The notes under the pieces were generated by a model. That model was not told the DNA's origin. It searched no databases and saw only the letters and a program-made list of their open reading frames with translations. From Clavelina lepadiformis (taxonomy: Eukaryota; Chordata; Ascidiacea; Aplousobranchia; Clavelinidae): DNA of 64,000 nt. Of this stretch, positions 2,871-33,000 are shown in pieces; the first letter of the stretch is position 1, and every line of letters starts with the position of its first letter. The translations under genes were made by a program, and so were the position numbers. The stretch lies in the NCBI RefSeq assembly GCF_947623445.1, contig NC_135241.1:26228501-26292500 (forward strand). Reading direction: 5' to 3'.

Positions 2871-3986
2871 TCATCTGTTAGTAACAAAAATGCTTTTAAA
2901 CATTTTTTTAAGTTTATTGCCGCTGTATTTGATGCTCGTCCATGGACCGGCCGACAAAATCCCTTTGAGGCTTTGGCTTTTGTTTGTATTTTTGACGATA
3001 TTGATCACACTCTGCTGAATGACATCTGATAAATCTGGGTACCTGGCCGCACTTTTCAGAATTTCCTCAACGTCCCGGACATGTCGTGCTTCGATGTCGA
3101 ACACGCGGCAGAGAGAGGTCTGAAGATGGAAGGGAAGCTTCTGGAGGTGGAGATGCTGGATCTGGGGCGACTTATCCTGATCTATCCTCCTCTTCTCCTT
3201 GTCCCAATAAATGAAACTTCTTAACGGAGCTCGCATCTGCCGGGACGTCTCGCACACACCTTCAAGCACGGGGTAATATAACTGCTGGAATCGTTCCAGG
3301 TTAGAATTGACGATATTTGAAACTTTGTTCCGGTCCTCACCCAGTGTCATCCGGAAATCCCCTGAGTATGACAGACCAGCAATTGTATGAAAAAGTTCGG
3401 TTTCTGAAAATGATTCTGGAAGAATGAGCAATGAGGTGAGCAAAGCCCCGATAAGATTTGCTTTCAGTCCTTCCAAGAGTTTCGGCGAAGCCTCAAAGTC
3501 GTGTTGAACGATATGCACGGGCTTGTGGAGTCGGCCTGCTACGTACAATGTGTCCCACTTGACAAGATCTTGTACAAGATTGTCTTCAGATATCACCCCG
3601 TATTTTATCACCCTGCCCTCGAGGGGAATCCCCGTATTGTAGTAAACGAACGCTCCGTAATTCTGCATCAGGTTTTTGATTCGTTTTGCCCCGGCAAACC
3701 TCATCAAGCCGGAATAATCTTGTTTGTTCATCTCCAGGTTTCTTTTGTGCCAAGCAAATGGGTCACGGACGACGAAGACAAAATCCAACATATTGCTCGA
3801 CGGAGGCGAATATTCATTTTGTGGAAATATTCCAGAGCCATAAGAGAAAGCCAAGCTCATGTTTCCGGGAAATCTTTGCAGAATTCCCTTGTACAATGCC
3901 GATGTTATTGCAACGTCATTTGTGATCCGTTGTAAATGTGCTAATGAGACGCGCATTTCACAGTTAAACACATGAAGCTGAAACAC
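2871..3986 (-). CDS. TAMM41: Mitochondrial CDP-diacylglycerol synthase, TAMM41 family
   Basis: A single exon encodes 371 residues. Family landmarks in order are LAFSYGSGIFPQ (nucleotidyltransferase G-S-G motif, near residue 46), NMLDFVFVV and AWH (the metal-binding Asp strand), FVYYNTGIPLEGRVIKYGVI, and TLYVAGRLHKPV. These match Tam41/TAMM41, which makes CDP-diacylglycerol from phosphatidic acid and CTP on the matrix side of the inner mitochondrial membrane for cardiolipin synthesis. Length fits the family (about 315-385). The second Met (about residue 11, MRVSLAHLQR) is another possible start. The lack of introns among intron-rich neighbours is odd and could reflect a retrocopy, although the frame is fully open. 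Confidence 0.95.
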   Translation of the reverse strand: MFQLHVFNCEMRVSLAHLQRITNDVAITSALYKGILQRFPGNMSLAFSYGSGIFPQNEYSPPSSNMLDFVFVVRDPFAWHKRNLEMNKQDYSGLMRFAGAKRIKNLMQNYGAFVYYNTGIPLEGRVIKYGVISEDNLVQDLVKWDTLYVAGRLHKPVHIVQHDFEASPKLLEGLKANLIGALLTSLLILPESFSETELFHTIAGLSYSGDFRMTLGEDRNKVSNIVNSNLERFQQLYYPVLEGVCETSRQMRAPLRSFIYWDKEKRRIDQDKSPQIQHLHLQKLPFHLQTSLCRVFDIEARHVRDVEEILKSAARYPDLSDVIQQSVINIVKNTNKSQSLKGILSAGPWTSIKYSGNKLKKMFKSIFVTNR

Positions 3987-4942
3987 AAATAGAAACTTGT
4001 TGTGAGCAATTTATATGAAGTTGATTTAAATTCAAGCCACAAAATACTAATTACAGAAAACACTGAATTTTGGAGCCTTTTATACTTTTGCACTCAGACA
4101 TAAAGACTGGAAATAAGTAATGAGGTCATGCATGAGAAATTATGGTATAATAATTCCTCAATACTCTGTAATGCTTTTCTTGATCTTGGAATTAATTGTA
4201 CACCTCGACAACTTTATATTCTGATTATATTGAAAGCTTCTTTGAACGAATACATCAAGACAGAACATTGTGACAGCAACAGCATAAAGACATGTTGCGG
4301 CGTTGAACGTACGACTGAAAAGGGATGACTCGTAATGCACGCACAGTAACAAAGAAGCAATGGATTACGTCACAAAGTGTTATGCTTCGCTGATTCGATA
4401 GACGAGAATTCTATGTCGTACACAATTTTATATTACATTAATTGATATATTTATCACAACTCGAGTGCAAAAGTATAAAAGTCACAAATTTTTTGTGCAA
4501 CTCACAACACGTGTATATTGTGATCAATAGCTGGATTTTTATGTTGACATTCTTTTTGCGTGCAAAGAGGCAATTTTTTGCATGTTGTCGTTGATGAACC
4601 TCGTATGCGTGCCGGTGCCACACTTTCTGTTGAATGGGAATGAGTTCGATGGATGCCCACTGGGCACCCCCATGTGTCTGATGTCTGAAGTGTGACCTGT
4701 GCCAGACTATTCTATGCACACATCACGGAGAGATTGTTTTAAGAGATGATTTGCTAGAAATGATTCTGGAGAAAGAGCTGAGCTTTTATAAAAGTTTAGA
4801 CCTAAAATAGCACAAAAGGTTGATTGTGACCATTGGAAAATTAAAATTAGTTTGCCAGAGTTGGGCATCCAACTTTATCGAGGGGCACCCACTAAAAAAG
4901 TTAAGGATGTTCACTGGATAACCAGTGGCACTGCTGTTGTAA

Positions 4943-9986: not shown

Positions 9987-12900
9987 ATGTCTGACGTATC
10001 GGAGGATGATGACGCAAGTGACACGGAGTTGGTAACGGTAAGTTTTGCCGCGATGTCACCATATAGTTAAGTAGCAGGAAGCTTCCAAACTATTTTGGAG
10101 TCTAGTCCAGAAGTGCACAACCAAATGACGTCACAGCTTTGGTAGCAGGAGTCTAGTATATAGCGTAAATGCATCGCGCGGTTGTGCACTTCTGAACAAG
10201 ATCTCATCAGTGTGCTCGTAAAACTCTTTTTATCTTCATGCCGCTGTACAAAAATCAAACGAGGAAAGGTATTTGCACGCCAATTTGTAATAATTAACAA
10301 AGAATTAAAGCTTCAGTGCACACCAGTACTCTAAAATGTTTGTGTTTGCTCGCATGAGTTTTTGTCGAAAACTACCATACTTTTTAATCGGCGCTGGAAA
10401 CACTGTTTGCATATTTGTTAAATCTTAACTTTTTTAAACTTTAGAACACGATGGCAGCTGAGCCTCAAACCATCGGCGAGCTTGTGTCGTTTATTGACGA
10501 TGGGTACAAGTCGGAGGGGGAGGTTGACACACGGAAACTTGTCGCCGATATGAATCGGAAGAAGAAGAAATCTGGAGGATTTCAATCCATGGGTAAAATA
10601 ATTGAATTAGTCGTTGCTGTTCTGCTCATTAATCCTTGATCACAACATGCACAGGTCTGTCACATGCCGTGTACAAGGGAATCATCAGGAAAGGCTACAA
10701 AGTGCCGACACCAATTCAAAGAAAAGTAAATAAGTCACCTATTCTCTTGGCGTCCACTGCAGAGCTTCCTCCTTACTTCTCCTGCATTTCAGTGCATCCC
10801 GCTCATCCTGAGTGACAAGGATGTGGTTGCCATGGCGAGGACAGGAAGTGGGAAGACCGCTGCCTTCCTCATCCCACTGTTTGAGAAGCTCCAGACACGG
10901 CAGGATGTGGGAGGAGCCCGTGCCCTCCTCCTCGCCCCCACACGAGAACTGGCTCTTCAAACTCTCAAGTTCGTTAAAGAGGTTTGTTTACAAGATGTCT
11001 GTTGCTATGTCCAAGTAAATTTTTACGCAATTTAATTGAGGGGCAAACTCTAATACAAGTTGATCTTAAATCGAAGAGAAGTCGTCAATTATCAATAATT
11101 GTTTTGGACAAAGAATTTTTAAACAGACTTTAGGCTTAGTAGGCTCATATTTTTTGTTAAAAATGTGTCACAAATTTCCCACTAGTTATGTCAGAGTTAG
11201 CCGCGATTATGACATAAGCATTTATACCCTTCCAGCAATAACCAGACTAGACTTGCGCCAACAGCCACGACTAAGTTAACTTAGCTGTGGTTAAACGTCT
11301 ACATTCCCCAACTGGGATAAGTACACCAACAGGAAGTGAGATAAGACCTAATCAACACAAGATGTTCCTGTTATATGCACTATTCATACTTGATCCAAAC
11401 ACCAAAATTAGTACATTGTGATGTCATAATTGCCACCACTTATTACTACCAAACAGGTATCACGAGTTATTCGATTGAACGCATTGCTCCGATTCGGTGC
11501 TTAAGGCTTATTCAAAATAAACCTGGTAAATGGCTTCACAAGTCGCTGTCCTGACTATATGATGTTGATGTGGTTAGATCGGAAAATTTACTTCTCTTCG
11601 AACGGCGTGTGTGTTGGGGGGAGACAGGATGGAGGATCAGTTCTCGGCTCTTCACGAGAACCCAGATGTAATAATCGCTACCCCGGGAAGATTGATGCAC
11701 ATCCTTGTTGAAATGGAACTTAAGCTCTCGTGTGTCCAGTACGTCGTCTTCGATGAAGCGGACAGGTTTGATCTGGATACCTTATTGCTCTGGTGGTCTT
11801 GCTGCTCTTGTGCTTGTGTTCTGTGTGTGTCCTTAAGTTAGGTTCCTTAATTAAATCTCAACTTTGATCAGACTCTTTGAGCTCGGATTCCAAGAACAAC
11901 TTCACGAGATCCTGCACCGCCTCCCAGAGGACCGACAGACTCTTTTGTTTTCAGCGACTCTTCCCAAACAACTGGTTGAGTTTGCGAAGGCCGGCCTAAA
12001 CGACCCGACCCTGATCCGACTCGATGTTGACTCAAAATTAAGTGACCAGCTCAAGGTGGGACTCGGAGTATATTGCCATGTGGTTAAAAGCAACTAATCA
12101 GTAGTGATTGTGTAGTTGGCTTTCCTCCACGTCCGACTCGAAGACAAACTCTCAGTGCTGCTGCATCTGCTCAGGAATGTTTTCAAGGAAAATGAACAGA
12201 CTGTCGTGTTCGTCGCCACCAAGCACCACGTCGAGTACATCAAAGAGGTAACCACAGGAAGTTGCTTTGTGATGTCATAATTCTTTGAAATGAAGCTTGT
12301 GATGTTGTCTTTGTCCAGGTTCTTAGATCTTCGAACATCTCGTGCTCGTTCGTCTACAGCAGCCTGGATCAAACAGCGAGGAAGATCAACATCGCAAAGT
12401 TCCGGAACAAGAAGACGATGAACCTGGTCGTGACAGACGTCGCTGCACGTGGACTCGACATCCCGATGCTCGATAACGTCATCAACTTCAGCTTTCCCCC
12501 CAAGTCAAAGCTATTCGTGCACAGAGTTGGTGCGTAATATTGTGTCTATGTTCATAAGATAACGTATTATCATCATGACTTGGTTGTGTAGGTCGCGTGG
12601 CACGTGCCGGTAGGACTGGCACGGCCTATTCCCTGGTGAGTCCCGATGAACTGGCGTTTGTCATCGACCTCCATCTCTTCCTGGGCAGGTCGCTCAATCT
12701 GGTCAGAAGCGGGAAGAAATACGGAAGTGAGTGCTGCAGACTTCGTCCAACCACAGAACTCGTGCTGTGCTGCCCATTTAAGCTGAATAACACAGTTGGC
12801 AGCGACATGGGTTGTGCGGTTGGAGTTGTATGAAAGGGAAGGCCGATACCCCTGCCTGTGTGCCCATCACGGGGAGGCCACTTTTACTTTCCAACATAAT

Positions 12901-15392: not shown

Positions 15393-18300
15393 ATGGACAG
15401 GAATTTGCTTCTAGCCTTGCTGTTGCTCGTCACAGGTGAATTATCGAGGCTCGCTGATAAGTGGCAGCGAGTCTAAATGATGATTTTAAAGTTATTGCGA
15501 GTCGAAGCAACGAGGAATGATTTCATGAAACTTAAAAGTTATCTTTCTTCTACGCAGAGGTGAAAGGTCAGTCGCTTCCAAAGTTGTCACCGTTGAAACT
15601 TTCTCCTCAGCAGTCGACAAATTCAACTTTAAAAGTTTCATGCACCGCAGCTCTGCCAGACTATTACACAGCATTCAACCTTGTGTGGGACTTCAATGGG
15701 GTGAGCGCAGTAAGGTTTCAATGATTTGGCGTCGATGCACAAATCAAAAATGTATTTCATGGTTATAGGTAAACCTCGGAAACACAGAACTGGAAGGAAC
15801 CTCAGTCTCTAAGCTCAGATCGACTGTTAGTGAAGGGATTTATTCTTCCCGGACCGATATCAGGTTGTCTGATGAAGTATTGAGTTGGTTTATTCTCGGA
15901 TGTCAGAGTTTAAAGGTTTTGGATTGTTTCATTTTTCAGCAATTCTGGCGTCACAGAAAATGTGGGGTCAACTGAGTTCACTTCAATCGTTGAAATTACA
16001 AATTTAGAACGAGAAGAAAGCGGATTCTTGATCAGGGCATATGCTGTAGATGGAGGCTCGGAGATATCAAGTAACGCATCGATTAATGTAACAGGTGCCT
16101 AAACCCATTTCGCTCTGTTGTATGACGTAATGTTTCCTGTTTATGACCAGGAAAAGGAACGACTTATGACGTCATATTTTCGCAGACTGCCCATCCAATC
16201 TGCCAAACAACGTCACAATCGAGTCAAGTTCAAGGGAATTCATGAATGAAGGCAAGTTCAAGTGCCCTGACACCGGGGAACTTGTCTATAAGAATAGCTC
16301 TCTATTGACATCTAGCGCCACAGTTTGCCTCGAGTCTGCCGAGTGGAAGAGTCAGCAAAATCTTCAATGCTGGTTTGGTAAGTCATGTGATGATGTCATC
16401 ACCTACGTTGAGATGACGTGTTAGCAATGCTGGTGCCGGATAAAACGTAATAATTTCATAAATGTTGCTTGTATTGTAGATGAAAGATAGCTTCTAGTTT
16501 TTTATTGATGATAGAGATGTCTAAACAATTTAATCATCTGCTTTTATAAGAATTGCACTTCGTGTTCAATGTTTATGTTTCAGCTCCAATTGTGACGATT
16601 GAAAGCAACTTGACCGTGAAAGAAGGAGATGACCTCGAGGTGACCTGCGATTACGCGCAGACCTTCCCCCAATCCAACCAATCAACGTTCTACATCGGCG
16701 ATGAAGCTGTGAAAGAGGATTACGTAATTACAACCCTAACTATTGGTCACAGTTTAACTTTATTCTCAAATGAAACTCTCCCCAGGGTGTGCCATCTATT
16801 GTGACATCACTGACACCGAGTGACAACAACAAAACAGTGTCATGTCAAGCCAACTCCCCCCTCACCGATATAGAAAAGTTCAACGACCTCGGAACATCCC
16901 TGATGTATTATATCAACGTCATATGTACGTCACAATTAAGTTATTCGCGCCGGCGCTCTTGTAAAGTTTTCCTCGATGCTGCAGAAATAAATATTTTCAC
17001 AGATGGCCCTCGTGATGTCACAAACACCATTGTCTTATCCCAATATGTGGTAGAGGGCGCCAGAGAGAACGAATACGTCGTAAGATCGGACCAAAATATT
17101 ACGATGAGTTGCGGAAGTGACGCAAACCCACCAGCTGGATGCCGGTGGCATCTCAATGACGAACTTTCCAGCACAACTGGCTGCACCACGACCTTCCACT
17201 TCAGTGACGCAACAAACGTGACTTGTGTCGCTGACAATGGCATTGAAGCTGTCATGGGCGCGGTGCAGCTGATAACCTTGGTCGATGTTGAGCGTAAGTT
17301 TTCTTCTGATTGTCCTTGTTGGAAGCTCCTGTTGCTATCAATACAATCTTGTTGCTGCCAGCGCTCTTCTGTCTCCACGAAATCTGTAGAATTAAATTTC
17401 TTGGTTGACTTTGTAAATTTCTCGCCATCCAGGGCAGACCCAACTTTCAGATGACGTCACCACTAACAACGGAAGTGTGAAGACTCGTCTGGGAGATTCT
17501 TTCACTTTCGTTTGTAGCGTAGACTATGAGGAGGAACTTGCGACTAAATTTCGATGGCTGCTCCCCAACACTTCTTTTATAATGGATTCAACTTTCACAA
17601 TATCCAGTCTCCGCCAGTCGGACTCTGGGAAGTACACTTGCCTCACTGAAGACCAGTTCGGAAACGGGAACAGTTCCATTTTTCTCGACATTTTATGTAA
17701 AATAATCATTTGATGTTTTCATTCTATAAAACAATTTTAATTGCATGAATTATTATCCATAGATGCTGCTTACCAGGAAATTGCGCCATCTTGTGGATGG
17801 AACCTCAATCAGGCGGGGTTATGTGAGGTTACTTTTCAAGCCAATCCAAGCTCATATTTTGTTGAAATTCTCAAAGTTGGTTTGTTACGTCATAAAAACT
17901 CTATTATTTTGTAACACAGTCTCAGTTATTGCTTCTACGACAGGTTATCCAGCAATGAACCAGGGATCAAATTCAATCACGTCCTTGGACTCGACCCAGA
18001 AATATTTCTTCGTGAGAGAACAGGTCTCTGGTTGTCAATTTTTTTATTGTTATTTGAACTTGGGACTTACTTTCAACATCGCTTTGCCCTACTATAAAAT
18101 ATGTCTATGATTTAAAATTACCTACCAACAGCACCGACATCTTACTGTATTTGTTAAGGTGACGTCGAGTGACGCAGGTTCATACACTTTGCTCGTTTCT
18201 TCCTCGGAGTTCCCCGACCAACGATTCATCGCGTTTGATGTCGATGTGGAGAGTTCTTACAACGAGCTCCTCATCCCATTGATTGTGGTGAGCTGCATCG

Positions 18301-19057
18301 CAGGTTTGCTGCTCATCTTCCTCATCATCTTCCTCGTCTTCTACTGCATCAAGAAGAAGAAGAAAAGTAGGTTTAACTCCTCACTTAAATTTGATTATCT
18401 TGTATTTGTTCCTTTCCGATTATTTTTACAGATAAGACGAAGCAAAAGGCGAGCAGTTACCATGACAACCTGAGAAGACTCTCAGATGTAAGTTTCAGGT
18501 TCATTTAAGGTCCTCCTATTTGTGCTCTTACCTATCTTGTGATGCAAAGATCTTTTTAGATTCCGGTCTCAGCTGGTGCCAACGCGAGAACGAATGGAAG
18601 TAAGTCTGGAAAGTTCCACATCCGTTGCTGTAAAATAAGTTATTTGCACCATTCAGCATTATCGTCATCACCGACTCCTTATGACGTAACGCTGGCGACT
18701 TGGGCATTGCTGCCAGCTCCAAATGTTCAAATATTTAGCAAACACTGAAACAGCCACCAGGCTATTTGTTCCTGGCATAGCATTTGGCAAATTTTGTTTA
18801 GCTCTGGAAAAATTATCACTTCAATTTCACTCATCAGGATTGAGCGTTCAGATATAATGACGTCATGTATAGATCACAATACATAAACAATACGTTTGTT
18901 GCATTGTATGTTTCGGTTGTTTTTTTTCTGCAGAGGCTTAATAACGGCTGCAAAAATAGTGCATTGATGATCAAATATCTGTTTTACAGGAAGCCATGGA
19001 CCGAAACAAACCCACTACAGCGTCAGTGGTAGCCGTAATGGCCACATAGAAATCTGA
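15393..19057 (+). CDS. Ig/CCP-like type I membrane receptor, gene 1 of cluster
   Basis: Fifteen exons join in phase to about 676 residues: 15393-15435, 15558-15700, 15769-15863, 15940-16094, 16186-16377, 16584-16723, 16786-16924, 17003-17293, 17433-17696, 17763-17879, 17944-18023, 18159-18366, 18432-18487, 18560-18599, 18990-19057. The start MDRNLLLALLLLVT is a signal peptide. Then come an Ig-like domain (exons 2-4), a CCP/sushi-like domain (exon 5: CP, FKC, VCLESAEWK, LQCW), Ig (6-7), two more Ig-like domains (8 and 9; DSGKYTC in exon 9), a membrane-proximal domain (10-12), a membrane segment (about 589-615) after KKKKK-flanked LLLIFLIIFLVFYC, and a 60-residue tail with two Tyr. The tail ends HIEI, a possible class II PDZ ligand. 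AATAAA is near 19211. The exon plan matches gene 3 at 22853; function unknown, probably cell-surface recognition. Confidence 0.88.
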
Positions 19058-19853
19058 TTACATTGTGTAGTTCCTTCCACTTCACATATAAGCAGCGCTG
19101 GAGAGTTGATACTGCGGAAAAAGTTGATAATATTCGACACGCCTCCATCCTTACCACAAGCACCCTGCGGGGCTGCTGCTGTGTACATCTCATATGTTGT
19201 CTTCTTTCATAATAAACCATTCATTGTGTGGTTTTCTGCGTAGTTTTCTAGAAACTTTTATCGAGATGTTTATTCGGAAGACAGTAAGACACCCCACAAG
19301 TATGTTATGACGTCATCATTGGGGTAAAAACAACTTCAGGAGACGTTGTCATGGTTTCCACATAATGTACAACTCATTTTGATTAAACTTTGCCGCCAGT
19401 ATTCAATTCCCATTGTTTTGCAACAAATGGTTGAGTAATAGTGGTGAGAGTGACGTCACTTGTTAGCTCGCTTTGACCTGGAGTAACCTGTAGCTTTGCG
19501 TTTATTCAACCAGTACAAGTTCATCGACGTTAGATCATTGTACAAATGAATAATGGAAGTCAGTGTCCAATCTACAGTAGACTCCCCATTCTTTTCCTTT
19601 CATCCTCTTATAGGTTGACACTTTTTAATTCGAAACGCATCGACAATCTTTCAAAGAGGTTCTTAGTTCTTCATTCCTCAAACTTAATCTAATCTTCACG
19701 TCCCAGGGGAATTCCTACGACGCGGCAGCTGAACATGAACTTGCAACTAAAGCTAGTTCAAGTCTTTGCTCAATTACTGATGTGGAACCGATGAGCTGCA
19801 CCGAGAGATTTGTTCATTTCAACGAGATCAAGTTTCAACATGAAATAGTTAAA
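19058..19853. other. Spacer between cluster genes 1 and 2
   Basis: It holds the 3' UTR and poly(A) signal of gene 1, a few TGACGTCA-like sites (for example near 19306 and 19451) and the presumed promoter of the vWA gene. No TATA box or further coding region was identified. Confidence 0.5.
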
Positions 19854-21750
19854 ATGCAGTTAGCCGTGTTTAGTTTTCTTGCTTGCTTGGCATTAGCAGG
19901 TTTGTGATACACGTCATAGGTTGGATTAATTGCGCTAATATGAGCGAAACTTTATGTATTTGTTCATTCTTGAAGGAAGTGCGTCATCGGAGAAATGTTT
20001 ACCTTTGACACTTGACCTCGTGTTCCTATTGGATGGCTCCAAGTCAGTTGGAGATAGAAATTTCAACACAATTAAGACCTGGATAAAAAATTTTACTCAA
20101 ACTCTGAATCTCGTCAACGATGCGGACAGGGTCGGAATAATTCAGTTCTCGCATTTCTACAAGTTCAGGTGAAAGTAACTGAATGCATCATCAATTGTGT
20201 GATAAAACATGAGGTTGCTGACGTGTTTCAATGAACAAACGGCGGCCGATGACAAGCGTCTGCTGCAAGTTTGCTGACAACGGTGAGTTACTTTCTCTTC
20301 TGTTGCTCAGACCCAGCACCGACCAGCCATACATGAAAACAGAAGTGGTCTTGGGGGAGATTAACAATCAAACTTCGCTCAATGTGAGTTTAGATTCCTG
20401 GCTCGGTCTGTATTAAGCTGGATACCAACCAACATAACGCATGTTGACGCGGAGTGACGTTTGCTTTCATGTTATGACCTCACTTAGGCCGCCATCGACG
20501 CAATCCAGCTTCAAGGATTCAAAACCTTCACCGCCCACGCTCTCAACAAGTCCGCGGAAGATTTCAAATCATCTTCCCGCTTCAACCAAACCAACACCAG
20601 GAAGATCCTTGTTTGTGTGCTGGACGGGAGGTGAACTATGACGTCATAACGTTTTTTTCAATATGAGATTTGACTTCTCTCATGCGTGACGTCATCTGTT
20701 TGTTCTTATTTTCTTTTTATAAGGTCGAGTGACGTCAAATATCTCGCTTCAAGTTCAAGTTACGTTCGATCTCTGGGGATTGTTCCACTTGTCATAGGTC
20801 ACAGTACCCACCATTATGATAGCTACATAGAGTTAAAGGTAACTTGTCCAAAGAATTTTATCACTATCTTTGGGCTCATCCAAGTTATCCCGTGAGCCAC
20901 TCCTTATTAATGCATTCTATGTTAGGTAATAATGGCAGATATTTGCAGACAATAGCAAATGGTGATTCATCTGATGAAAGAATTTATAATATTTCCAACT
21001 TCGATGAACTGAGGTTGTTGACTCCCAAGATTCAGGAGGAAATTTCCAAAATTATTCCACAAAGTAAGTTGGAATTTTCACAAAATCCTCAGAACCATTT
21101 TATACATAACATATTTGGTTGACCTCAGTTGAACCCTGTCAAAGTGGTCCGGTCACGTGCTTGTGGGAGGCGGGAAAAAAGAGGTCATGCGAGGTCACGT
21201 TCCATTCAAATCCGGAAGCAGAATTTATTGAAATCAGCAAAAATAGTTGGTGTTCTAGAATTAAATTGATAACTCACAGCTGCCCAATAATATTTTTAGA
21301 TGATAAAATTTGAAACCTCTCTCAGGGTCAATCCAGGACGATATTTCAGTGTCAAGATCAACTCATTCTGGTCAAGTTCAAACAATCGTCATTGAAAAGA
21401 CAGAGGTATTGATCATTTTTATTCTTTCATTTTAGACTTTTTTCTGCTTTTAAAACGAAATGTTTCCACAAAATCAATAATTTTGTTACAACTAGATGCC
21501 CATAGATATCTTATAACTAGTTCAACAGGAGTCAACATTTCTGTTGCAGGTAGTTCCAGATGATGAGGGCTTGTATATAGTGGAGTTGAGTTATCTTGGA
21601 AGGGGTTTCTCCATTTCTTTTCAAGTTGTTGTCTCCAGCACCCAGCCTAACCTGCCGCTGATCATCGGCCTCTCATGCCTGGCTCTCATTGTCTTGCTTT
21701 TTGCCGTCATAATCGCCCTTTATTTGATCACTATTAAGTCTACAAAATAA
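19854..21750 (+). CDS. vWA-domain membrane receptor sharing the cluster's membrane-proximal cassette
   Basis: Nine exons join in phase to about 360 residues: 19854-19899, 19976-20168, 20311-20383, 20488-20630, 20724-20838, 20949-21063, 21129-21245, 21326-21405, 21550-21750. The start MQLAVFSFLACLALA is a signal peptide. Residues about 24-228 form a von Willebrand A domain: FLLDGSKSVG gives the MIDAS D-x-S-x-S (residues 35-39), GFKTFTAHAL supplies the MIDAS Thr (about 117), and VCVLDGR the distal Asp. Exons 7-9 encode the membrane-proximal domain also found in the two flanking Ig genes, with exon lengths 117 and 80 nt as in gene 1. A membrane segment (about 330-354) and a six-residue tail (TIKSTK) follow, so it cannot signal alone. 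A metal-dependent ligand-binding role is inferred from the intact MIDAS. AATAAA overlaps the stop codon. Confidence 0.9.
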
Positions 21751-21811
21751 ATTCCTCCAACATCATGGCTGGAGTGTTCTTACCTTGGAAATTTCTTCTC
21801 TTCTTGCGTCT

Positions 21812-22135
21812 TCACAATTGCTCAATAAGCGAGTTCATAGAAATGCGAATGCAACGGTCAGATAATTCAGGTTTCGGTTTCCTCTTCTTCAAAACGATTT
21901 CCCGAAGCGACCTCGCCACCCATAAACTCGGTTGACCGCAAGCTTGAGTTTTTGTGGGACCGGCGTCATAATAGTTTAGCAGACCTGAAATTAAGCCGTT
22001 AAGGGAATTGGCGGCAGGGGGTGTAAGCCACATTTGGTGGCTTGCATCAGCAGAAATATTGCCGCGTATCGTTGAATGGCCTGACGGGATGATCGCTTTC
22101 ATGCGACCTCTTCTCATCATAGCTCTTTCTTCCAT
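21812..22135 (-). CDS. Candidate small single-exon gene, unrecognised
   Basis: A 107-residue minus-strand frame sits in the spacer between the vWA gene and the next Ig gene. It begins MEERAMMRRGRMK and ends RCIRISMNSLIEQL, with a Lys/Arg-rich stretch (VLKKRKPKPEL) near the C-terminus. Composition looks protein-like and not like a shadow, since no gene overlaps it on the other strand. TGACGTCA lies about 60 bp upstream of the ATG. No signal peptide, membrane segment or known domain is visible and no poly(A) signal was found close downstream. It may be chance. Confidence 0.3.
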   Translation of the reverse strand: MEERAMMRRGRMKAIIPSGHSTIRGNISADASHQMWLTPPAANSLNGLISGLLNYYDAGPTKTQACGQPSLWVARSLREIVLKKRKPKPELSDRCIRISMNSLIEQL

Positions 22136-22852
22136 CTCTGGACGCGGTTAGTTTCGGAGCAAACCGATATCTCAGTCGCATCAGTCAAGTACGCTGACGT
22201 CATATGTTGAGCAAGGATGCGTTGGAGCAGATTCGTGATAATTTTGTTGTCATTTTTTGTCACGTGCCAAGCTGTGAGTGGCGCGTGTTTGCGTCGCTGT
22301 GCCCCGAATAAATTGTATTTGGTCGCTCTGTTCTAAATTGCGCATGTGGCGCATAATTTATGTGGCTTGTCAGATAACTTTGCTAAATCAATTACCATGA
22401 TAATTGACGATGGTGACGGTTGACCTGACGTGGCGTCAGTTGTGAGGCCACTGTCGCATGTTTTTGTTTCTGAAAACCAGTGGCAATCAATCGTATGATA
22501 TGAGGATTTAAGTTTGCAGGTTCGAATCTTTTTTGCTGATTCGTTGTAAGAAGAGTGCTACTAACGTTGTGGTCAAGGTATTTTCTTGTCATAACGAGTT
22601 TAAATGGACACGTTTTCTCAAAACATGTCTTGAACCAGGAAGTGCTACTTGGTTTCGACCCGGAAGTTATTCCATCGACAACATAACAAACATTTTTCAT
22701 CAAATTAGGAAACATGAGATCTGACAATACAGCTTTCTTTCCTACTTCCGTGATCTACACAATACGCAGAGCTCTTTGTGGTCGACTTCGATAGTTCGAG
22801 GAATTGTTATTCGCTGCCAGATTCTTTGTGTGTTTATGAGGTATATGAAGAC

Positions 22853-25800
22853 ATGGAAGCCTTTATATTGCTTGGGTCAGGTGAGCTAAATAACTTAACG
22901 AAATATATTTACTGAGTTGTAGAAATAAATAATATAATTGTTACGTCATATTGGTCCTTTGACGTGAAGTTTATTCGGTTTCTTTTAAAAATTTCAAATT
23001 TAAAACGTCACAAGAGTAGAAGAGAATTTTTATTAGTTTATTTGCAGATTACTTAAAAATTGAGCAAGTTTGTGCTTGTGCAAAAGCTTATTTGTCACAG
23101 GACCAGTTGCACATTGAAAATATTCTATGTTCAGACTGTTAGCTTTCTGACATAACACGACGCCATTACGACCAGATAATCTCAATAATCGTGACCACGC
23201 ATTGCACGAATTGGCGGGTTTCCTGTTCAGCTCTTTTCAATTAATTTCTACTTTTCTAGTGTTCCTTATTATGACGTCAATAAGCGATGGACGTCAAGTT
23301 TCTCTCTCACTGCCAAATTCAATCCAAGCATCCGGATCAAACGTCACAGTCACCTGTGCGGTGACGCAAACGACGGATTCTTGGAGTTTTTCTTGGATTT
23401 TGAACGGCGTAATACACCTTATTTCCTGATTAGAAGCCGCGCAAAATGATCAAAAATAAAAAAAAATAGCAGCTGCGGCTTCCATTTGAAAAAATACCGT
23501 ATTTGTTGATCAAATAACTTATTCACGTAGCTGTGACGTAGGGCTTTATAAAGAGGATGTGACGTTGCAGGTTTGGGTCGGATATGCCGGTCATACCAGC
23601 AGCCTCTCCACCTACAGGTCAGTTGATGTCGGAACCATTTACACGGACCGGATAAGCATCAGGTGAAGATCGTGGCAATGAACTCATTCCACCTACCACC
23701 TGGAACCTTGACCTTGATTCCACTTGATTTTCAGGGTATTCCCCAACAAAGTTGTAGGGCCGGATTATAATTTCACCTCCGAGCTAACCATCCGCCAGTT
23801 GGAGCCATCCGACGATGGCTTGGTAATTCTCATCGAGGATTCGGACCAGCGTGCGAGTGTCACCTTGAACGTGAAAGGTGAAAGGTCATTAGTTAGGTCG
23901 CCTTTGGCAACACAACTTAACTTTGTTGAAAATTAATCTAACGGATCATCTTTGTTTGTTCATAACTTGATGACGTCATCTCCTTGCGTACTCCTCTCAA
24001 CGAATTGCTGCTTTAGATTGCAACATCACGCTCCCGCATGGTGTCACAGTAGAGTCAAGTTCAGCAATATTTGGGTCACTAGGAACGTTTGAATGTCGCA
24101 ATAATGGTCAATTGTTTTACAATAATGGAACAGCTTTGACCACTTTGGACACAAATTGTCTGGCGTCAGCAATGTGGCGTGGCGCGGAAGGTTTAGAGTG
24201 TTGGCGCGGTGAGTTGGAGTTTTATCAAATCGTGAAATGTTTGGACTTTTTGAAAACTTAACTTTTGTTCAGCTCCAAATGTGACTCTTACTGGAAATTT
24301 CGTCATCAAAGAAGGCGGCGACGTCACAATCAGCTGTGATTATGACGACACATACCCATCTGGAATGTTCACAAGATATTACGTCGGTGGCGAAACGACG
24401 TTGGTGCATAAGGTCAGAATGTTTGTAGAAATAATAACAATTTCCAATTTCTTTGTGAATGAGCTCTCTGTGACATCACAATATCCGCTTAATACGTTAC
24501 AGGGTCAGCCAATGACTTTGATTTCGCAACAAGCGGATGACAATAACAAGGTCGTGACGTGTCAGGCGGTGACTCCTCTCACAGATGTCAACCCTGCTCT
24601 AGGGAAATCCCAGGATCGAGCTCTCAACGTCAGATGTAAGCTCTCTCCGACTTTAACCACCTGAATATTACGAAATAATCAAATCGTTTATGACGTAGTT
24701 CCTCCCCGTATCTTGGACGCTGTCACGTGCATTTGGTTTACGTCACTTCGCGGAAAATGCGATGTCATGTTTTCATCCAATCCACCTGCGCGATTTGAAG
24801 CATTGCGTAAGCAAGGTATAGACATCATATATATATATATTCCTACTTGTAATATTTATAACACTAGGTGTCCTTTTACAGGCGGGAAGAAGGTTACCAA
24901 CGATGGAATTAACATTGTTACGTCACTGAGTTCAAACCAGACATTTACTTTTGAAAGGAGACAGGTAAAAGAATTAGAGATTAATAACTTCAGCCACGTG
25001 CATACGATGTGATTTTTATGGATTTTAGGTTAATCCTACTGACAATGGAACCTACTCGCTCATCTTGAAGTCTTCCGAATTTTCCGGATCATATGACGTC
25101 ATCTTTGACGTCGTTGTAATCGATAACTCATCGGTTGCTCGACCTGTTGTAACAATTGCAACAACAACTCACGACCGATTATCGACAACAGACGACCGAT
25201 TATCGACAATTGGCGACCGATCGACGACGAAGACAGCCAGGGTAGATGGTATCGATGCTGCTCCACCTAGCGGAAATACAGTGATGGTGTTGCTCCTCTG
25301 CTTGCTCGCTTTCTTCCTCATCTCAACCATCGCTCTCGCCTATTTCTATACGAGAGAAAGAAGAAAAAAGAAGTTCAGGGGAGGAAACGTCCAAGGTGAT
25401 CACGTGACGTCATGCAAGTCTGATTTTTAACGCTTTTATGTTTTGTGACGTATTTTATGTTCTTTCAGGAATTAATGGCTCTGTTGGTTTCATGGCAGCG
25501 GGTGAGTAGTATGCAGTGTAATGAGGAAATAATAATTATACCTTGAGTGATGACGTTGTATACGTTGATGACAGATAATGGAAGGTACGTGGAACTCCCC
25601 GCATCGACCCCGCACAACACAGAGGTGAGAAATTAGCATTTTACTTTACACAGAATCAAACTTATAATGCTTCTATGTCTTTCTAATAAGGCTGCTACCT
25701 ACCCAGCAAGCGGGGAAAACCCTTACGTAGATATGACGTCACTTGGTAAGCTCTAGTTTCATAACTATCTGACGTCATAAAGCGACTAATTTAAATAAAC

Positions 25801-26100
25801 AAACGCTTTTTTGTTTAGCGAATGAAAACGGCCAGACTTGCGCAAATCCATATTGCGCAGCTGCAGAAGAGGCCACAGAAAATGTAAATATGACGTCATA
25901 AAGAAAATATTAATTCACATCCTGGTTGGTTATTAAAACCATTGTGACCTAACCACCAGTTTTGTATTCTTCAGATTGAATCAACCAATCAGAAGTCGAT
26001 TTACGAAACCTTGGACGTAATAAATCGTTATGAAAATATACCGGTGAAAAAAAATGGAAAAAATGATTATGTCGTCACTGAGGGTGGGCATCGTAATTGA
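22853..26100 (+). CDS. Ig/CCP-like membrane receptor with tyrosine-rich signalling tail, gene 3 of cluster
   Basis: Fifteen exons join in phase to about 590 residues: 22853-22880, 23260-23408, 23571-23662, 23735-23877, 24017-24208, 24273-24412, 24503-24635, 24699-24815, 24882-24964, 25029-25395, 25469-25501, 25575-25624, 25691-25745, 25819-25883, 25975-26100. A signal peptide is split across exons 1-2 (MEAFILLGS/VFLIMTS). It has an Ig-like domain (2-4), a CCP-like domain (exon 5, 192 nt exactly as in gene 1), Ig (6-7, SCDYDDTYP), the membrane-proximal cassette (8-10), a Thr-rich stalk with repeated DRLST units, and a membrane segment (about 443-467). The 120-residue tail contains YVEL (497), YVDM (521), YCAA (539), YETL (559), YENI (568) and YVVT (581). 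YVDM fits the PI3K p85 SH2 site, and SIYETL fits the ITIM pattern. It lacks the two extra Ig exons of gene 1. Role inferred: phosphotyrosine-signalling recognition receptor. Confidence 0.88.
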
Positions 26101-26542: not shown

Positions 26543-28941
26543 TAGGCTTACCATACGTCCCGTTTTAGCCGGGACAGTCCCGCTTTTTAAGGCTTTGTCC
26601 CGGTGTCCCGGTCAGTCAACCAAAAGTCCCGCTTTGGCATTTAGCCAGCTAACATTGCCCCACACGACACGAATATTAGCACATTGTGATAGGTCTGTTT
26701 AGCCAACTTGCTGAAGAGCAATGCTCGATGCGTGTTCTTGTTTCGTTGTGTCAAGTGCGAAAGCAATTGTTACGTCATTCTAGCGGGTAATTGGTCCAGT
26801 AATGAGTTGATTGTTAGGGCATTCGCTAGTTCAGTAATAGTAGGCTAGGAGGAGGTGATGTTTTTGCAGTTAGGTTATTGAAAGAACGTTTTTCGTATCG
26901 GTACTTGTTTGTATTTCCTTCTGCAAAAACCATTTGAATGTGAAAGCCCTTATCACCTGCAAAATTAACACTGACTTTTCCTGCTGTGATTTTTATGACA
27001 AAATAAAGTCGAATAAAGACTTCTTGAAAAAAGTATTGTCTACAGAAAAGTATGATTAAAAATAGTAAAATTATGTAAATTTACAAACGCTTAAACATTG
27101 TTTCCTAGTAAAATGCATTATTTTAGTTTTTCTTGGTGTCTTACTATTTAAGTTTTCCCAGACGACAGCAATCCAAAATAGTTTCATACTCCTAGTAAAA
27201 TATGAACTACATTTATCTGATAAGGCTCGTTGTTCGGAAGCGTCCCGGTTTTCAGTCACAAAAATATGGTAAGCCTGTGACGATTACGTCACGACTCACG
27301 AGTTGTTTTGAGATGTTTGGAATTTAATTTGGGATATTGGAATTCAGTGTTTACCAAACTTGAGTTTTCCTTAATGACGTCAGATAATTTCCTCGCTTGA
27401 ACTGGTGTGTCACATATAAATACTGATGTAATGTTTTCAATCTTTCCTTTTTACGTGATCGATTTCACTGGTTACTACAGCGCTATGTAACATTCAGCAA
27501 GATTTGCCCGAAGGCGAAAGCCTTTGTGTTATAATAAATAAAATGGGAACTTTATAAGTTAGTAATTTGTATAGACAGGATCAAGCAACTAACAGCATAG
27601 TCACGCAAATTTGAGAAATGAGAACTCATCAATCGAAGCAGAAGCAAAACAAGTCACCAACCATCAATCGTCCTCGCTCATATTCAAACAATAACCGCCA
27701 GCATATGCGGACTTTATGACAGAGATGTTCGTTGTGTAATACTTCACACGAGTAGTGCACAAGCGAATTATTAAATGTCATAAATTGGTGCCTGATAAGT
27801 TCGAAATTGCTGAGTTAGTTGCACATTGAGCGAGAAGGAATGTTACCAGCTATTTATGAAGTTTTGATGACCAAGTTTCAACAGCAAGATCAGCCAACTA
27901 CGAACGCTAGTCAACGAGGAGGTTTTCAGGACATTCCATCTACAATATCATCAACCTGACTAATTCGGAAACAACAGCACTAATGACATTGATGCCTGGT
28001 TGATGTGATGAAGTTTTGATCGCCTAACTAACGTGTTATACATCTCCAAGAGCATGAGCGAACTATTGTATATATTTTTTACGCATCAAGAAACAAAGTC
28101 CACTGGACATCGCCACACGGCGCATCTCTCTACCGCAAACAAGGCTTGCTACAGCCGCGGAACGACACACGCAGACGTGATCGCTCATTTTTTTACCTTC
28201 GACACGCAAGGGAAATGCGACACTTCTGTAAGCTTATGTCTCATGTTTTGTATTTCAAGTGAAACGGTGTATCGATATTTGTTATATTTACCGAACTTTG
28301 TCATTGTACTGTACTAAATTGTTGTTTTAATAACTGTGATGAATATTATAACCACAGACATAATTTTGTCGAGTAAAGGTTGCCTTCAATTTCATTTCAG
28401 GCAAGCTTTACTCTGGGTAGGAAGGCTATGTGACGATTACGTCACGACTCACGAGTTGTTTTGAGATGTTTGGAATTTAATTTGGGATATTGGAATTCAG
28501 TGTTTACCAAACTTGAGTTTTCCTTAATGACGTCAGATAATTTCCTCGCTTGAACTGGTGTGTCACATATAAATACTGATGTAATGTTTTCAATCTTTCC
28601 TTTTTACGTGATCGATTTCACTGGTTACTACAGCGCTATGTAACATTCAGCAAGATTTGCCCGAAGGCGAAAGCCTTTGTGTTATAATAAATAAAATGGG
28701 AACTTTATAAGTTAGTAATTTGTATAGACAGGATCAAGCAACTAACAGCATAGTCACGCAAATTTGAGAAATGAGAACTCATCAATCGAAGCAGAAGCAA
28801 AACAAGTCACCAACCATCAATCGTCCTCGCTCATATTCAAACAATAACCGCCAGCATATGCGGACTTTATGACAGAGATGTTCGTTGTGTAATACTTCAC
28901 ACGAGTAGTGCACAAGCGAATTATTAAATGTCATAAGCCTA
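26543..28941. mobile_element. hAT-like MITE split by an LTR element
   Basis: The ends are TAGGCTTACCATA and its exact complement (13 bp, perfect). The flanks are ATGTTAGC at 26535-26542 and 28942-28949, a perfect 8-bp target duplication as in hAT. Just inside the left end are repeated GTCCCG blocks. The original element was about 735 bp; the LTR element at 27276-28933 landed 2 bp from its right end. There is no transposase. The intact terminal repeats suggest a moderately young copy, older than its guest. Confidence 0.85.
27276..28933 (+). mobile_element. Short non-autonomous LTR element (TRIM/LARD-like), very young
   Basis: Two 505-bp direct repeats, 27276-27780 and 28429-28933, look identical by eye and start TGTGACG and end TGTCA. 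The flanks carry TAAGCC on both sides (27270-27275 and 28934-28939), a 5- or 6-bp target duplication. A primer-binding-like TGGTGCC starts a few bases after the left LTR, and a purine-rich GGGTAGGAAGG precedes the right LTR. Each LTR has a TATA-like ATATAAATAC and an AATAAA. The internal region is only about 650 bp without recognisable gag or pol, so it is non-autonomous. Identical LTRs imply recent insertion. Treated as a fossil element. Confidence 0.88.
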
Positions 28942-30005: not shown

Positions 30006-33000
30006 ATGAACGATTCCAAGGTCGAGTTCAACCAAAACGATTTTCAAGATTGCCAGGTCGGTTGCCAGGAAGTCAACGTCACCAACGTTTACAGTGAGTG
30101 ACGTCACCTCAAACAGTGACGTATGTAACTTACATCTATATGTACCGGTATATTCCAACTACGGCACAGAGATGACTAGAATTAATATATGATGTTGATG
30201 AGGATAGGGTCTATAGCTTTGAAAAAACCTTTACAAATTGCAAAGATTGAGTGGCCAACTTCCGCTTTCGACTTTGTTGGGATTTTCCCCTTACAGAGAA
30301 TACACTTTACAGTTTAGCTTAGAAAGCGAAATATTTCAATATTTTGGCGGAAATGTTGTTTCATTACTTTGGCGCGCATGCGCATTTCATTTGATCAGAA
30401 TTATGCACGGATGTTATACGTCAATAGACATCTGATAAGTTCGTTTAATTGTTACTAGATCAATTCTTCCACGGAAGTGAAAAACCGCTCGAAGATGAAG
30501 ACATCACTCAATTAGGTGAGATTATGACAAAGAGCTGAGATAGCTGTAGGGAACTGGTGCAATGAACACAATCAATGCTGAGTCATCGTGTGTTTACAAA
30601 TCTGACATGTTTCGTTTTGCTGATTTTGTTCCTGCATTCCTTGTGTTAATGCCACCAGTATGCTGAGATTATTATGTCATTTGGACGTTTATGACTAACA
30701 AAGCACAAAAGCCCACTTGAAGTGACAGAATTGGATAAATCCTGGAGCAGCAAAGAACAAAAAACAACAAGGATAACTTATTTCAATGCAATTTCAATAA
30801 TTACGTCATAACGTGCATCATTTTCGCTTCAGCGCGCGAACTTGCTGGAAAACTTCGCGAAGAGGCCCGGATCACTTCCGGTGACATGGTACTTCCGGTT
30901 GAGTTGGACCACCCGATCAACGCGGTGGCGCTAGAGATATCGAGCGACTTGCAACCAGACCGTGAGAGGATGGAAGGAACCGGGCACTACAACAGGAGGG
31001 CGGACTTCCTCAACGTCTATGAGCAGCCTGAGGGGGACATTGCCCTCCAGGATCTCTTCAAGGAAGCTCTGGGGAGAGCAGAGACGGAGTCCTTGAAGAA
31101 ATGCCGCTTGAAGCCGCTGCAGGAGAGGTATGTTCGTTGTCATGGCAACATTGTAGGCGTGGTCGGCCAGGCCGGCATCGGGAAGACGACCTTGGCCAAG
31201 ATCCTGGCAAAAAAGATTCTGGATGAGGGATTACTGGAGGCAGAGTTCATCTTCTACATCCCGTTCCGGATGATCAACTACGACTCTGAGTCCAACTTGT
31301 TGCAATTTCTTGTCACCAGTAGCTCCTGTAGGTGGCGTCACACAGCGCGGTCCGATGAAGCGCTTCTGAAAGAAATCGAACAAAGCTTCTGTTGCGTCAT
31401 AATCCTCGACGGTCTTGATGAGGCGATCATGGACAACAAATCCGCCTCCTACGTAAGTCCCGATGACGCAGCCAAGGCTGAACTTTTCATAAAAAATATT
31501 CTGAATGGAAAGATTCTACCGCGCGCCAAGAAGTTTGTGACGTCAAGGCCTCGTCAGATGTTCGATTTGCACCGCGACTGCCGCCCCAACTTCATCGTGA
31601 ACGTGTTGGGGTTGAGCAAGAAGTCCCAGGAGCAACTCTGCAGAGAGATATGCGGGGAGGACGCACCAGAAGTCCTGAGATACCTGGAAGAACATCCCGA
31701 CATATCAGCTTACTGTTACGTGCCGGTAAACTGCATCTTAACTGCTCACTGCATTCATCGGAGCTTGCTGGATGAGGAGGAAGCCAACCTTGACTCCATC
31801 ACCAGTGTCCTTGTCTACGCTCTTCTTGGGTTCGTAAGGTCGGAGCACATCCGGGATAACGCGTCCTTCGAACCTCACAAGCTCTCACAACTCGCCTGGA
31901 ACGGATTCATGAGGAAGAAGATCATCTTTGATGAGGAAGATTTTAAGGAGTTTGAAATCAACGAGGAAACTCTGAGAGCTTTCCTTGAAACTTACGTCGA
32001 CTCCAGCATGAGAGTAAAAATCCTGGAGGGCGACAAGAGGAGTTACTTCTCGCATCTGATCTGGCAGGAATTCTTCACCGCTCTCTACATGATGATGTCT
32101 ATGTTGGCTGCAATCTTCGAGCAGGAGATAGTAAATTTCGGCGATGGTCGCTGGGAAGTGGTCAATAAATTCATCTTCGGACTCACGAACCCCAAATCTT
32201 TTAAGTCCCTCCAAAAGATACTGCCCCCCACTGTGAGAAAGAACGTCACAATGGAGGAATGGAACAAGAAAAAGTGTCTGCTGCAAGACTATGCATGTAG
32301 TCTCATGCCAGCCGAGATGACCAACGTCACATGCCCCGACTTTCTCCGAGTTTGTGGATTTATTAGTGAGTCAAACGATTGTGACATCACCAATCACGTC
32401 ATAGCGCATGCGCCTCTCGACATTAATCTGTCGGAAAATATTTTGCCCAGTGACGTCACAAGCCTCCACTATTTCCTAAGTCATTCAAAGAAGGAGCACG
32501 TCATAAACGTTGGCTTTGGAAGCGCTTTCAACTCCGTGCGATTCTTGGGCGACGGGTTTGAAAGATTCTTCCGCGGATTGGCGGAGGATGACCGAACCAA
32601 GCATGTCAAGGTGGTCGTCTATTGTGATGTCATATATGTTTATAATAAGTAGCACACACAATCAATTTGTAACAATGAAATTGCGATTTTAGTTGCGCAA
32701 GGTCATGGTTGAGCGCTCAAGCATAACGGACGCTGGCATACGTCATCTCACCAAAAGAATGACGGAGATTGAGGAGCTGACTTTGTATAAGACCGGTCTC
32801 TCTCATCTTCACGTTGAAATTCTTGCAAAGTCAATTAAAACAATTCCCAAGATGGTGAGTCAACCAGGAGACTTTTGTACAACAGCGCAATAAAAATAAA
32901 TTGTGATGTAACAATCACTTTTATTGCAGATGAAAAAGTTGGATCTGGTGGAGAATGCCATTGGTGAAGTTGGGTCACGTGCTCTTGCAACGTGCTTGTT

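Follow-up and report, generated by a model that had tools for sequence, protein, structure and literature searches.

A predicted cluster of single-pass receptors with varied heads on a common immunoglobulin-like base in the ascidian Clavelina lepadiformis

Three adjacent genes on the forward strand of contig C2 (NC_135241.1) of the colonial aplousobranch ascidian Clavelina lepadiformis are predicted to encode receptors that carry different outer heads on one shared immunoglobulin (Ig)-like base next to the membrane. They lie in a stretch of 64,000 nucleotides (C2:26228501-26292500, hereafter the window), and searches of the whole genome (209 Mb, 95 contigs) place this window at the far edge of a large single-contig receptor cluster, whose predicted architecture is of a kind already described, though with new heads. 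We consider it probable that the three genes form the edge of a large germline-encoded cluster of recognition receptors, whose likeliest role would be non-self recognition by blood cells or epithelia, with allorecognition as the closest precedent. The structure of the family is read from gene models, and from it we infer the mechanism proposed below.

The gene models, built from genomic sequence alone with GT-AG introns and a maintained reading frame, yield proteins of 676, 360 and 590 amino acids for genes 1, 2 and 3, respectively. Gene 1 (window positions 15393..19057, +; 15 exons) encodes a signal peptide, a variable-type Ig-like domain (IgV), a complement control protein (CCP)-like domain, three Ig domains, the shared Ig-like base (the cassette), one transmembrane segment and a short tail, with matches to Pfam Ig_3 in three stretches. 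Gene 2 (19854..21750, +; 9 exons) joins a signal peptide and a von Willebrand factor type A (vWA) domain (Pfam VWA, E 2.3e-28) to the cassette, one transmembrane segment and a tail of ~10 residues, and gene 3 (22853..26100, +; 15 exons) comprises a signal peptide, IgV-like, CCP-like and Ig domains (Pfam Ig_3, E 3.9e-9), the cassette, one transmembrane segment and a long tail. A hydropathy scan found one hydrophobic membrane segment in each of the three proteins; the signal peptides were assigned by inspection, with that of gene 2 alone passing the hydropathy cut-off and that of gene 3 split across exons 1 and 2. Splice models, hydropathy and inspection bear out the arrangement described in a first-pass annotation of this DNA, namely three adjacent same-strand genes with a signal peptide, a common membrane-proximal domain and one membrane segment. 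The head exons of genes 1 and 3 have the same phases and near-equal lengths: the V exons measure 143/95/155 nt in gene 1 and 149/92/143 nt in gene 3, the CCP-like exon 5 is 192 nt in phase 1-1 in both (16186..16377, with a pattern of four Cys and a Trp, and 24017..24208; both +), and the Ig domain after it is divided into 140+139 nt and 140+133 nt, respectively. The two extra Ig domains of gene 1 occupy a single exon each (291 and 264 nt).

Exon A of the cassette is 117 nt long and both enters and leaves in phase 1 in all three genes (17763..17879, 21129..21245 and 24699..24815 in genes 1, 2 and 3; all +), as the first-pass annotation had stated. Exon B (phase 1-0) is 80 nt in genes 1 and 2 (17944..18023 and 21326..21405, +) and 83 nt in gene 3 (24882..24964, +); the annotation had given the right lengths in the order 80, 83 and 80 nt, which exchanges the values of genes 2 and 3. 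Exon C (18159..18366, 21550..21750 and 25029..25395, +; delimited by splice model and hydropathy) begins in phase 0, encodes V-x-x-x-D-x-G-x-Y and bears the membrane segment, together with the stop codon in gene 2 and a stalk in gene 3. The common sequence pattern claimed earlier was recovered as well, with C-x-W, C-x-V-x-F and N-P invariant across the three genes, and a profile of the 117-nt exon searched against six frames of the window matched its own three seeds (E 4.9e-26 to 1.7e-24), the next match being at E 0.27.

Alignment of 13 spliced cassettes revealed nine invariant residues (C11, W13, C21, P29, F33, D71, G73, Y75 and F92) and five near-invariant ones (F25, S27, N28, Q58 and V96). 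We take D-x-G-x-Y to be the F-strand motif of an Ig domain; the usual F-strand Cys that follows it is replaced by another residue. Pfam identified Ig domains in genes 1 and 3 and VWA in gene 2, and gave the cassette no name above its cut-offs. At E<=1, V-set matched six of the 13 cassettes, Ig_2 five, and Izumo-Ig, I-set and Ig_3 three each (best E 1.8e-5); nine further weak matches, mostly single, were to unrelated families or to ig, and the cassette of gene 1 had no Pfam match in this search. The majority of the 60 rows shown from a PDB profile search were Ig proteins, matched mainly through D-x-G-x-Y and its surroundings, alongside a phage tail protein, cofilin and flagellar hook proteins. 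Because the Pfam and PDB matches are mostly to Ig proteins, we assign the cassette by sequence to an Ig-like domain of unnamed kind with two extra cysteines (C-x-W, C-x-V) close together, and the V-set and Ig_2 matches argue for related folds of the 117-nt exons, on which the first-pass reading had depended.

The cassette recurs far beyond the window. Merging by hand the lists from single-member whole-genome searches, followed by a recount, gave 54 distinct exon-A matches on C2, with 51 between 24.17 and 26.25 Mb and three at 20.39-20.41 Mb. One single-member search placed six of 81 matches off C2, of which four fall in the membrane part and two, both weak, extend to exon A (C8, E 0.21 and 2.8), and three others (55, 38 and 73 matches) placed none there. 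Chance likeness of three short exons is ruled out by these searches, whose matches lie nearly all on C2. The CCP exon of gene 3 gave at least 71 matches, 70 on C2 and one on C1. Of 29 exon-A copies, from the loci and the window, 22 can be read as 117 nt in phase 1-1, six fit best at 120 nt and one suits neither length. Of 22 loci, 15 have an exon-B candidate of 80 nt with a family-like peptide, sometimes not the best-scoring candidate, and four have one of 86 nt; in the remaining three none was found.

Between 25.31 and 26.00 Mb of C2, 36 cassette exons follow one another at a median spacing of 18 kb. Cluster members were assigned by identity to types (a to d), the gene at 25.996 Mb loosely to a and that at 25.310 Mb loosely to c, and by an order test devised after the order had been seen the types are interleaved, neighbours of the same type occurring 3 times where 9.6 would be expected (p 0.003). 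Match coordinates recur at offsets of ~121 and ~128 kb, and of ten chosen pairs of paralogous stretches, nine share 92-99% identity and the tenth 77%. Duplication in the cluster appears to be recent, and the closest paralogue pairs may be haplotypic duplicates retained in the assembly. We make no claim of strict gene pairing like that of Botryllus: each of four d genes is followed by an a gene (p 0.0004), one d gene being on the other strand, and since block duplication at ~121/~128 kb yields such an order, it is explicable without pairing.

At least four head types are predicted on the shared base, so that the first-pass proposal of different heads on one base, made from three genes, gains a family in which exon A recurs dozens of times. 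The head IgV-CCP-Ig belongs to gene 3 and, as far as it was read, to type b, whose V, CCP and Ig exons were allotted to the type according to the closest cassette downstream; in the one such locus followed from the CCP through to the cassette, no additional Ig match turned up. IgV-CCP-Ig-Ig-Ig is the head of gene 1 and of type a, where one locus matches the extra Ig domains of gene 1 at E 1.6e-12 and 9.9e-18. Type c, represented by one locus with its 5' end unread, has three CCP exons and then an Ig. The vWA head of gene 2 is found again 2.08 Mb away in a gene at C2:24.172-24.175 Mb, which is 39-52% identical to gene 2 in four vWA pieces and has its own cassette and transmembrane exons downstream. 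In a cassette tree of 13 rows none of ten forks was well supported and the two vWA cassettes were ungrouped; because both are long branches and the forks are weak, one gain of the vWA head is indistinguishable from two. A separate vWA run at C2:26.097-26.118 Mb (-), ~110-131 kb before the window, includes five matches with open frames of 398-442 amino acids and one with a frame of 981, and single-member cassette searches returned no cassette matches near it.

The V-exon phases of genes 1 and 3 (1-0, 0-2, 2-1) are found in at least five of six type-a loci and at least three of four type-b loci. The B-strand cysteine present in genes 1 and 3 is kept in none of the 12 listed V1 exons, and the joined V exons of two paralogues gave no Pfam match. 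Across six type-a paralogues, the ratio of nonsynonymous to synonymous substitution rates (dN/dS) was 0.90 for the V exons (129 codons) vs 0.44 for 217 codons drawn from the remaining exons tested, namely the CCP, the second Ig and exons A and C of the cassette, with a codon-bootstrap 95% interval for the difference of 0.10 to 0.92 and 0.65% of bootstraps at or below zero; with type a joined by four type-b sequences and the cassette exons left out, the values were 0.84 vs 0.44. Intervals for single exons are wide. In the types tested, constraint is evident on the CCP (dN/dS 0.31-0.46) and on exon A of the cassette (0.20-0.39). A dN/dS of 1.51 for type-a V3, obtained with five sequences, was dropped, the value being 0.86 with six sequences and full exons. 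By these estimates the first Ig domain of type a varies more freely than the exons it was compared with, with type b less clear, and the outer domain appears to undergo relaxed or mildly diversifying change, short of proven positive selection.

The long tail of gene 3 (exons 11-15, 25469..26100, +) contains YVEL, YVDM, SIYETL, which fits the pattern of an immunoreceptor tyrosine-based inhibitory motif (ITIM), and YENI; its three Yxx[ILV] motifs compare with 0.90 in shuffles (p 0.047). The first-pass annotation did not know this family from the literature, yet gene 3 has a published layout. According to a 2025 review (PMC12065747), the fester co-receptors (FcoR) of Botryllus schlosseri consist of a signal sequence, a variable-type Ig, a sushi (CCP) domain, two C2-type Ig domains and a transmembrane segment in 520-610 amino acids, with a long tail bearing an ITIM, a hemITAM (a half-sized immunoreceptor tyrosine-based activation motif, ITAM) or Y-x-x-I/L/V; 53 loci are known over several individuals, they adjoin fester genes with three transmembrane segments and HECT ligases, and receptors of this kind are proposed to control tissue acceptance. 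Gene 3 agrees with this account in the order, number and kind of its domains (signal peptide, IgV, CCP, two Ig, one transmembrane segment), its 590 residues lie inside the FcoR range whereas the 676 and 360 of genes 1 and 2 lie outside, and its SIYETL, YVEL and YENI fit the FcoR tail, which the tails of genes 1 and 2 do not. Both families are large and clustered, with 54 cassette exons in one assembly here vs 53 FcoR loci in several individuals. In fester itself (PMC3549757), the sushi domain is on exon 5, after an Ig, as the CCP of genes 1 and 3 is, and uncle fester combines a 3' part common with fester and an unrelated 5' part (PMC3549757, PMC12065747), an exchange resembling that of heads on a common base here.

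There are also differences. Unlike FcoR as described in that review, the shared base here also carries vWA and triple-CCP heads. Fester itself has three transmembrane segments and no known signalling motif in the same accounts, unlike the single-pass genes 1-3, and within the window no such three-pass partner stands beside gene 3, whose neighbours in the cluster include genes 1 and 2. HECT matches, judged after the fact and no more than suggestive, were located at C2:24.812-24.813 Mb, with a cassette gene 15 kb off, and at 26.380 Mb, which is 126 kb away from gene 3, and they do not accompany each gene; DnaJ, a framework gene of the Botryllus locus, had no match at E<=0.001 in C2 23.72-26.53 Mb. 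A 2020 review (PMC7344649) states that neither fusion nor allorecognition had been studied in Clavelinidae, and no report of a Clavelina cluster was found in the literature searched. From the likeness to the published description we infer that gene 3 may share descent with FcoR and may work like one.

Other systems offer looser parallels. The Alr proteins of the cnidarian Hydractinia are also clustered Ig-type allorecognition receptors with a single transmembrane segment, some of them with ITIM or ITAM tails and with Ig domains lacking the usual cysteines; we know of no CCP or vWA head among them. Vertebrate receptors of the KIR, LILR, FcRL and CLEC-2 type are clustered paired receptors with ITIM, ITAM or hemITAM tails, and to our knowledge they have no CCP or vWA heads and their Ig domains differ.

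We propose that the outer head would bind a ligand on another cell or a microbe, and that the shared base would keep the head off the membrane and let members pair or cluster. Ligand binding would then lead a kinase to phosphorylate tail tyrosines, SH2 proteins would be recruited, and the cell would be switched on or off. Members without such a tail, such as genes 1 and 2, might serve as decoys or as partners of signalling members. The three genes are candidates for telling self from non-self; the swapped heads that the first-pass annotation had seen at this locus are supported by the gene models, and the immune or allorecognition role that it attached to them stays conjectural.

We favor a recognition-receptor cluster because of the 54 exon-A copies on C2, the locked exon lengths and phases, the four head types and the single transmembrane segment of each window gene, and because of the ITIM and YxxI/L motifs of gene 3, the GYxxV, YENx and YxxI motifs in candidate tail exons of three other types, the relaxed first Ig domain of type a, the recent duplication and the interleaved types. 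The FcoR layout and length, and a CCP on exon 5 as in fester, add to the case. Several results weigh against it. The CCP exons of genes 1 and 3, so called from their Cys/Trp pattern and kinship with type-c exons, match nothing in Pfam, and of the differing ectodomains named in the first-pass annotation it is the Ig and vWA domains that Pfam confirms. The three type-c CCP exons all match Pfam Sushi weakly, below the curated cut-off (E 0.0049, 0.014 and 0.088), no CCP protein came up when the PDB was searched with a profile built on ten CCP exons, and AlphaFold modeled the CCP exon of gene 3, with gene 1 as the sole aligned row, at low confidence (pLDDT 52.7). The tails of genes 1 and 2 lack Yxx[ILV]. 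The tail exons put forward for types a, b and c, as candidates, show recurring GY[LI]xx and YEN and a closing Y-x-x-I or Y-x-x-V, having been picked by a filter that required Yxx[ILVM] and so biases the motif counts, and their comparison with shuffles was set aside for this reason; each is open in two paralogues, save for the final one of type b, which comes from a single locus, and a phase-consistent chain of tail exons reaches a stop in type a only. The G-Y-x-x motifs resemble hemITAMs. The dN/dS of the first Ig domain does not exceed 1 with six sequences, that of type-b V1 is just 0.43 (four sequences), and the type-b second-Ig exon D3a reaches 1.08 (ten sequences) or 0.80 (four). Lastly, a scan showed no open second cassette exon in two of six type-a genes (loci L044/L021 and L045/L025; C2:25.537 and 25.858 Mb), and some copies, including these two, may be dead or alternatively spliced.

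As to origin, we tentatively suggest that an FcoR-type family with a diagnostic Ig base predates the split between aplousobranch and stolidobranch ascidians, and that it comprises ~50 genes here, on a base that also takes vWA and triple-CCP heads, its members being a candidate allorecognition or blood-cell recognition system. The likeness to Botryllus is one of layout, and Ig and CCP are common modules that could have been joined independently, in a family serving antimicrobial defense and not tissue recognition. Such convergence would suit the vWA and triple-CCP heads, which fall outside the published co-receptor layout, as well as the lack of a DnaJ match (E<=0.001) in the cluster and of a HECT match next to each gene; we nevertheless think it rather unlikely, given an agreement that spans the order, number and kind of domains, the size of the protein, a CCP on exon 5, the classes of tail motif and gene clustering.

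A role in gamete recognition or self-sterility, like that of the CCP-bearing Ciona candidates, appears improbable. The polymorphic CCP protein vCRL1 of Ciona and the weak Izumo-Ig matches of the cassette (three of 13 at E<=1, best E 2.9e-4) speak for it, but V-set matches more cassettes with better E values (six of 13, 1.8e-5), and an ITIM-type tail fits signalling in blood or epithelial cells. Least probable in our judgment are ordinary adhesion or scavenger receptors grown by tandem duplication: vWA and CCP domains do occur in adhesion and complement-like proteins, but the ITIM tail of gene 3, the relaxed first Ig domain of type a and the dozens of copies argue otherwise.

The surroundings of the three genes contain further features. 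Ahead of them in the window lie a TAM41-type cytidylyltransferase (2874-4010, -) and DEAD-box helicase exons (10730-12094, +). Just beyond gene 3, open frames that recur 1153 bases apart (27281-27774 and 28434-28927) constitute a tandem duplication, which is not among the Tandem Repeats Finder results (period limit 500). About 4.6 kb beyond gene 3, a 637-residue open frame (30739-32649, +) with matches to NACHT, the NOD2 winged helix and NLRC4 HD2 marks a gene of the NOD-like receptor (NLR) type; it is the sole NACHT match on C2 beyond 15 Mb among the 97 NACHT matches listed genome-wide. NACHT matches occur by dozens on C4 at 0.3-3.7 Mb, many with open frames of ~344-410 amino acids, and others on C5, a large expansion of NLR type.

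In very few animals have allorecognition receptors been traced to genes. To find the family in other tunicates, the phase-locked cassette exons (117 + 80 nt, CxW..CxVxF.SNP) provide a simple marker. If the receptors of Clavelina are indeed kin to FcoR, they would offer a single locus of ~2 Mb for study in a colonial species, and this type of receptor would date from before the split of the main ascidian lineages.

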